Below, in pieces: positions 1 through 6,523 of a stretch of DNA of 6,523 nucleotides. The stretch's first letter is position 1; the number at the start of each line of letters is the position of its first letter. The translations under genes were made by a program, and so were the position numbers. Origin of the DNA: Candidatus Poribacteria bacterium. Lineage in GTDB: Bacteria > Poribacteria > DTPJ01 > WJIO01. The notes under the pieces are model-generated. The model made no database searches. It saw only the letters and a list, made by a program, of their open reading frames with translations, and was not told the DNA's origin. Location of the stretch: the NCBI GenBank assembly GCA_014730235.1, contig WJIO01000440.1, positions 1 through 6,523 on the forward strand, written 5' to 3'.

Positions 1-99
1 AGCGCCATTGGCCAAGACAAGAATCTCAGCTTTTGAGGCTATAAAGCCTATGGTTGCATAATTCGCCAACAGTATCATAAAATTTATGCTTGGAGACAT
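1..99 (-). CDS. Possible partial CDS, N-terminus of an exported protein
   Basis: An ATG at 99 opens a minus-strand frame that stays open for 33 codons to the window edge. The peptide starts MSPSINFMILLANYATIGF and continues IASKAEILVLANGA. The hydrophobic stretch at residues 8-20 followed by SKA could be a signal peptide cleaved after SKA, which would fit the exported neighbours. An alternative start is the ATG at 78 (MILLAN...). Neither start has a recognisable Shine-Dalgarno sequence and there is no basic n-region, so this could be a chance open frame or a gene remnant. The frame is closed upstream by a TGA at 133-135, inside the palindrome. No function can be assigned. Confidence 0.3.
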   Translation of the reverse strand, partial: MSPSINFMILLANYATIGFIASKAEILVLANGA

Positions 100-5632: not shown

Positions 5633-6175
5633 TTAGTCTTCAATTAACCATTTGCCGGTTATCTTCAATACTTCCACTTTCATTTCCAGATTTTGTCTCC
5701 TTACAGGAACCAGATCAACTATATCAAATCCGCATGTTCTCAATACTTTTTCCATGCTGACAGTGCATGATGGCGCGCCTCCACCACCGCCGCCGGCAAC
5801 GCAAATTCCTATACACTTTTTACCGGCTATATTCTCTTTTCCCGATTCGTGCATGCACGTTCTTCTCAATCGATCCAGAAAAGTTTTAAGGCTTTCGCTG
5901 AGATCGCCAAAATAGACAGGTGTAACAAAAGCCACAACATCAGCACCTTTTATTTTATCCACAAGTGAAGCAAAATCATCTTTTATAACACACTCGCCTT
6001 TTGTTCTGCATATACCCCATCCTGCGTTATCACATTGACGACATCTATCTATTTTCATCCTGGGCAGAAAAAACTGTTCGATCTCAGATATATTCATCCC
6101 CTGTATCATTCCATCTGCTGCCCTTGCTGTCTGACCGTCTGGATTTCTGCTTCCCATTATTATTAAAGCTTTCAT
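5633..6175 (-). CDS. Flavodoxin-fold FMN reductase / iron-sulfur flavoprotein-like oxidoreductase
   Basis: A 180-residue protein of the NADPH-dependent FMN reductase family. The first strand and FMN phosphate loop read MKALIIMGSRNPDGQTARAA (1-20). ADVVAFVTPVYFGDLSESLKTFLDRL (78-103) is the second FMN-binding region typical of the family. Cysteines C45, C48, C56 and C62 sit in CRQCDNAGWGIC...GECVIKDDF, where many relatives have the tighter CxxCxxC pattern of iron-sulfur flavoproteins. Whether a cluster is bound is uncertain, since the third cysteine is displaced. A glycine run (128-133) followed by APSC resembles a third cofactor-facing loop. The start at 6175 is set by AGGAGG five bases upstream; the frame is open 31 codons further but those codons cover the promoter. 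Probably first gene of an operon with tldD and tldE, perhaps a redox step; the substrate is unknown. Confidence 0.88.
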   Translation of the reverse strand: MKALIIMGSRNPDGQTARAADGMIQGMNISEIEQFFLPRMKIDRCRQCDNAGWGICRTKGECVIKDDFASLVDKIKGADVVAFVTPVYFGDLSESLKTFLDRLRRTCMHESGKENIAGKKCIGICVAGGGGGGAPSCTVSMEKVLRTCGFDIVDLVPVRRQNLEMKVEVLKITGKWLIED

Positions 6176-6265: not shown

Positions 6266-6313
6266 CATTTTTATTTAAGAACCAAGCATAAAATTTATAT
6301 CCGTGAAAACTTT

Positions 6314-6477
6314 GGCTCTTCCGGCTTGAGTGGGGTAAAGATAAGAAACTTTTTTATACTGTCATTCCTGCGAAAGCAGAAATCCAGTAGATCCGCATAA
6401 AGACTGGATTCCTGGTTTCGCAGGAATGACAAGCTAAGAGGATTTTCAATTATAACCCAACTAAACCCGGAAGAACC
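6314..6477. mobile_element. 164-bp palindromic MITE-like element with target duplication
   Basis: The whole stretch is one symmetric imperfect palindrome centred at 6395.5. Ends read GGCTCTTCCGG (6314-6324) and, on the other strand from 6477, GGTTCTTCCGG; the first 23 positions match at 19. The central arms 6360-6388 and 6403-6431 (TGTCATTCCTGCGAAA...) match at 27 of 29 around a 14-base loop. Directly outside lie 7-base direct repeats AAACTTT at 6307-6313 and 6478-6484, as expected of a target-site duplication. It encodes nothing, so it looks like a non-autonomous element moved by a transposase elsewhere. The GGCTCTTC ends recall ISL3-family terminal repeats, from memory only; that family usually duplicates 8 bp. 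It stands upstream of the flavoprotein promoter and, with that promoter, accounts for most of the 348 bases beyond ATG 6175. Confidence 0.8.
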
Positions 6478-6523
6478 AAACTTTATTTGTTAATCCGTTC
6501 TTAGCAATAGCACAGGGATGTAA

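Follow-up and report, generated by a model that had tools for sequence, protein, structure and literature searches.

The 164-bp palindrome at positions 6314-6477 of the window (the whole 6,523-nucleotide stretch analysed, contig C392) was found to be, with a probability of about 0.88, part of a nested non-autonomous transposable element that has two or more layers and, at its centre, an independent hairpin; the composite lies upstream of a flavoprotein gene. The genome examined comprises 5.53 Mb in 451 contigs and is 91.6% complete and 4.8% contaminated. Copies were fetched by query similarity, and the proportions and statistics given here cover the fetched copies of this fragmented assembly. 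The features of the window are the following:

78-93, minus strand: right-hand terminus of a further CCAAGCATAAA-type element, at the opposite edge of the contig
2746-2828, no strand: decayed relative of the inner element, with one 26-bp hairpin (2760-2785) and a right arm that ends in AACCCGGAA
6282-6523, plus strand: outer MITE with ISKra4/ISLre2-like ends, starting CCAAGCATAAAATTTATATCCGTG, its right end beyond the contig end
6307-6313, plus strand: AAACTTT left of the inner element, conserved outer-element sequence and the probable remnant of an 8-bp duplication, AAAACTTT
6314-6477, no strand: inner ISL3-type MITE, 164 bp, with the ends GGCTCTTCCGG and CCGGAAGAACC
6361-6430, no strand: central hairpin, inverted dRS3-like 20-mers at 6364-6383 and 6408-6427 with a 24-bp spacer
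6478-6484, plus strand: AAACTTT right of the inner element, part of the outer element, where relatives have the right flank AAAACTTCTGATACAGACTAAAAACTTTATTTG

The initial annotation gave the size and both end positions of the palindrome (6314 and 6477) correctly, and the equal length of its arms was confirmed by gap-free symmetry in a repeat search (arms 6307-6388 and 6403-6484). Its description as fully palindromic was too strong, since the arms are 76% complementary and identity between the element and its reverse strand is 71-72%. Nonetheless, the DNA fold of -42 kcal/mol lies so far below that of shuffled sequences (-17.5 +/- 3.3 kcal/mol, z -7.3) that the structure of this imperfect palindrome is real and beyond chance, and the inner hairpin (6361-6430) is as well conserved as had been described. 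The genome search returned 87 alignments to the inner element, many of them full-length at 80-95%, a number that exceeds the copy number because palindromes align on both strands. Dozens of copies in the genome share both GGYTCTTCCGG ends, as had been anticipated; a single-copy sequence, or copies without common ends, would have spoken against mobility, and the element proved to be multi-copy with both ends common across copies. Perfect 8-bp duplications flanked 17 of the 62 end-paired inner copies at the fetched loci (shuffled mean 0.5), rising to 31 of the 62 when up to one mismatch was allowed (shuffled mean 3.1), with exact duplications at 7 bp in three copies and at 6, 9, 10 or 11 bp in none of the 62. 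Duplications of either 7 or 8 bp had been expected in support of mobility; the 8-bp ones were recovered, and the three of 7 bp all lie within the outer element. The commonest sizes were 164 and 120 bp, the 44-bp gap between them corresponding to a 26-bp single hairpin that replaces the 70-bp double hairpin. The decayed relative at 2746-2828 has no recognisable left end; its neighbours are tldE on one side and a gene for a secreted protein on the other.

The inner element behaves as a real, multi-copy, non-autonomous MITE of ISL3 type. It resembles ISL3-derived MITEs in being short and non-coding, in its many copies with common terminal inverted repeats starting GG.TC.TCCGG, and in its 8-bp AT-rich target duplications; direct repeats of 8 bp have been reported for ISAeme19, an ISL3 element (PMC12554700). 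In contrast to them, it is near-palindromic throughout and carries a hairpin mid-element. In this genome, ISL3 transposase fragments terminate in 11 bases that nearly match those of the MITE; they sit at contig ends, and two stop codons fall in the putative terminus (...ACCGGATGAACC and ...CCCGGATGAATCC, with terminal contexts also given as ...CCGGATGAACC and ...CCGGATGAATCC), the ...ACCGGATGAACC end being one base off the MITE consensus. Only transposase fragments were recovered, with the IS ends GGTTCATCCGG and GGATTCATCCGG versus GGYTCTTCCGG in the MITE, and the genome yielded no complete ISL3 IS bearing GGYTCTTCCGG ends. Most MITE ends differ from that of the IS by one base (T versus A), the IS end reading GGTTCATCC where most MITE copies have GGYTCTTCC; the copy L079 has GGCTCATCCGG. 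At a separate locus (L031), the 3' end of a primase/toprim-like gene (frame 285-1511) appears to be cut off by an ISL3-type IS.

The sequence around the inner element is a second repeat, CCAAGCATAAA...TTTATGCTTGG, with complete copies of 107-333 bp, and the full composite unit runs from CCAAGCATAAAATTTATGTCCGTGAAAACTTT through the inner element to ...GTTACTCCGTTCTTCGCAATAACACAGGGATGTAAAATTTATGCTTGG. The outer end pattern gave 265 genome matches with up to three mismatches (control, 3), and at least 40 right-arm copies were found in the genome with a joined-flank query. Perfect 9-bp duplications were present in 19 of 40 paired outer copies (shuffled mean 0.48), a single copy having an exact 8-bp duplication and no copy one of 10 bp; the 40 include two overlapping alternative pairings (L099 and L219), so that the elements themselves number slightly fewer. 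Two outer copies are without the inner element, namely L143 (107 bp) and L018, which is 165 bp long and flanked by ACAAATTAT, a perfect 9-bp duplication. Both are diverged and, aligned to filled copies, run through the join as ...AAGACTTCTGAACAGGCTAAAAACC...; a search of the genome for the near-exact empty junction GTCCGTGAAAACTTYTGATACAGAC, with up to three mismatches, found none. The best-preserved composite is L079, in which the inner flanks AAAACTTT/AAAACTTC are accompanied by the perfect outer duplication GAGCTAAAT. The outer element of the window ends at the contig edge, about 13 bp short at the right compared with L050 and L058, and therefore its own 9-bp duplication is not visible; the nine bases just left of 6282 are ATTTAAGAA, and the expected right end of the element is ...GATGTAAAATTTATGCTTGG. 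The outer-type family bounds the contig on both edges (78-93 and 6282 to the contig end), and a repeat family at both edges is a usual cause of assembly breaks. A 36-bp perfect palindrome (CATTCCCGTGATTTTGTA/TACAAAATCACGGGAATG) lies at 108-143, 14 bp past the end of the outer-type element at 78-93.

An intact 1,509-bp IS of the same genome (L253), whose transposase frame is open over about 442 aa and whose ends read CCAAGCATAAAAATAATGTTCCCTT, also has CCAAGCATAAA termini and is flanked by the perfect 9-bp duplication ACAAATCGG. The outer MITE is thus like ISKra4/ISLre2-like (UPF0236) insertion sequences in its 11-bp terminus, identical to that of L253, and in the length of its duplication. Past these 11 bp, the inverted repeats of the two diverge (ATTTATGTCC versus AATAATGTTCC), which makes L253 a relative and no exact parent. 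The L253 transposase matches Pfam UPF0236, and its NCBIfam scores of 152.9 bits for ISKra4 (cut-off 205 bits) and 144.5 bits for ISLre2 (cut-off 200 bits) fall below both curated cut-offs, so that it is termed '-like' and placed in neither family proper. A related transposase fragment was found beside a CCAAGCATAAAATTTACATCCG terminus (L223/L254). The ends and duplication lengths suggest that transposases of these two kinds may act on the respective MITEs.

The genes of the window near the element encode a flavoprotein, TldD and TldE/PmbA (tldD and tldE/pmbA). The likely start of the flavoprotein gene is the ATG at 6175, preceded by GGAGG, and the outer element starts about 105-106 bp upstream of it. 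A promoter-like site, TTGATA-17-TAAAGT, was located on the minus strand at 6265-6237, between the outer element and the gene, and is thus uninterrupted by the element; a search for a terminator-like site at the locus found none. The closest TldD relatives, both at 71%, belong to a Candidatus Poribacteria MAG and to a MAG labelled Desulfobacterales, so that a Poribacteria-like host is probable; the flavoprotein query gave no match in the 16 TldD-bearing loci. Elsewhere in the window, three adjacent, apparently secreted proteins are predicted on the minus strand (164-919, 1116-1892 and 1905-2765), with the similar C-terminal tails SKLTTTWGAIK, SKLTVSWGELKK and RKLASSWGHMKNY. Two further similar tails, DKLYETWGEIKTR and NKLPVTWGNIKK, were found by a pattern search of the fetched loci (L225 and L240), and such tails may serve as a sorting or anchoring tag.

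The central hairpin is a third, independent repeat that occurs in several unrelated arm contexts. Its assignment to the abundant GTCATTCCTGCGAAAGCAG repeats was borne out by 617 genome matches to the half-site GTCATTCCTGCGAAAGCAGRAATCC with up to three mismatches (reversed control, 0); core matches far outnumber inner-element copies, and the hairpin is also present in other element families. The 109 cores with both arms fell into several arm groups, a separation that rests on short alignments; the ISL3-type was dominant, alongside some mixed pairs and two further paired families, C/D and E/G. Arm clusters A and B both contain ISL3-type termini, so A/B pairs are no evidence of mixing, and arms of cluster A or B were seldom paired with those of C, D, E or F (about 12 such mixed pairs). 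One composite, L198, is without the core and suggests an AGC/CAGC flank as a possible duplication of the core's own, which the other arm families do not show. The core was found in 5 of the 84 genomes of the phylum, this one included, with 71, 190 and 14 matches in G001, G003 and G040, respectively, and its contexts in the other genomes are unlike the arms here. In one locus of G001 (L188, about 1416-1530), the half-hairpin GTCATTCCCGCGAAAG is tandemly repeated with the 28-bp unit GTCATTCCCGCGAAAGAACTTTAAAGTT. The 70-bp core had no match in phage and plasmid collections, and the exact 27-bp half-site occurs in three viral contigs. Neisserial dRS3/NIMEs are targets of phage or IS110-type recombinases; no IS110-type recombinase (PF02371) was matched in this genome.

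The literature yielded only a gonococcal copy of the core sequence, with the same arrangement of two inverted 20-mers (PMC7593972). The neisserial dRS3/NIMEs have 20-bp inverted repeats around a short spacer in mosaic contexts, dRS3 proper being ATTCCC(N8)GGGAAT and placed on either side of RS sequences (PMC9778887, PMC3898611). The core is like them in its two 20-bp inverted repeats, ATTCCY(N8)RGRAAT, its short variable spacer, its hundreds of copies and its mosaic contexts. The repeats here read ATTCCT(N8)AGAAAT and ATTCCT(N8)AGGAAT, alike in form to dRS3 and outside its exact pattern, and differ from dRS3/NIMEs in that the hairpins lie inside transposon arms with defined ends. Taken together, the locus is a nest of known kinds of elements, and its novelty is modest.

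AAACTTT directly abuts both ends exactly, as had been noted, and the element is multi-copy with its own duplications elsewhere; both facts would fit a direct, recent insertion of the 164-bp element with a 7-bp target duplication. This candidate was rejected and is now extremely improbable, since the same flanks recur at unrelated places, on both sides in L009 and L021 and on one side in L004, L020 and L029, as part of a larger repeat, which means that AAACTTT is no insertion-site duplication here and that the insertion cannot be called clean or recent on its account. Moreover, free inner copies have duplications of 8 bp, and exact 7-bp flanks were seen in three inner copies within the outer element and in none of the 48 outside it. 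Leaving out L182, a false assignment, none of the 13 inner copies inside the outer element has a perfect 8-bp pair. The right flank in one large subfamily is AAAACTTCTGATACAGACTAAAAACTTTATTTG, from which we infer, for the subfamily of the window, a deletion between the two AAACTTY copies of the right flank that left seven matching bases. Because the flanks are a second repeat with its own 9-bp duplications, and an IS has the same terminus, the unit that landed upstream of the flavoprotein gene was most likely the composite. The segment 6314-6477, formerly taken for the complete unit that moved here, would then have travelled within the outer element, the likely mobile unit.

A single MITE family of one transposase, with the free 164-bp copies internally derived, would account for the composite being common and for a join conserved across many copies, but it was judged very improbable: free inner copies have their own 8-bp duplications at their own ends at unrelated sites, against 9 bp for the outer element; outer copies without the inner element exist; and the outer terminus is that of an IS with ends and a duplication length unlike those of the inner element. 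It is also improbable, if slightly less so, that the palindrome serves chiefly as a functional structure of RNA or DNA (a terminator or REP-like sequence) under selection at gene ends, with incidental mobility. The strong hairpin, its intergenic position, the patchy occurrence of the core in other genomes of the phylum and its resemblance to dRS3 favour such a function, whereas the lack of a terminator-like site at the locus and the clean duplications at two end sets, which show transposition, oppose it. The genome yielded a single Y1/REP-type transposase, and the 3.4-kb locus around it contains no core hairpin, which likewise counts against this reading and led to the rejection of REP/RAYT mobilisation.

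The nested composite is best explained by the following events, the order of which we infer. The outer layer is a MITE with CCAAGCATAAA termini and 9-bp duplications, most likely moved in trans by an ISKra4/ISLre2-like transposase. An ISL3-type MITE, carrying the dRS3-like double hairpin found also in unrelated element arms, would have inserted in an ancestor of this outer MITE at AAAACTTT/C, making an 8-bp duplication, and the composite would then have been amplified via its outer ends. In the subfamily of the window, the right-flank deletion would have left only the seven matching bases, and a copy would have inserted upstream of the flavoprotein gene, about 105 bp from its ATG (6175), leaving the nearest promoter-like site uninterrupted. 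More speculatively, the GTCATTCCTGCGAAAGCAG double hairpin could be a self-spreading module that enters unrelated transposons of distant phyla and serves as a join for the exchange of transposon halves, giving elements with mixed ends; this is possible, though rather doubtful.

These results correct a plausible misreading: where the flanks of a palindrome belong to a mobile element, a direct repeat around it does not prove insertion. They also define two clean MITE families, each with its duplication length measured; for the outer family, a related IS is present intact in this genome. With hundreds of hairpin copies in several backgrounds, this genome is tractable for asking how the GTCATTCC-type hairpin, a similar form of which is known from Neisseria, spreads.
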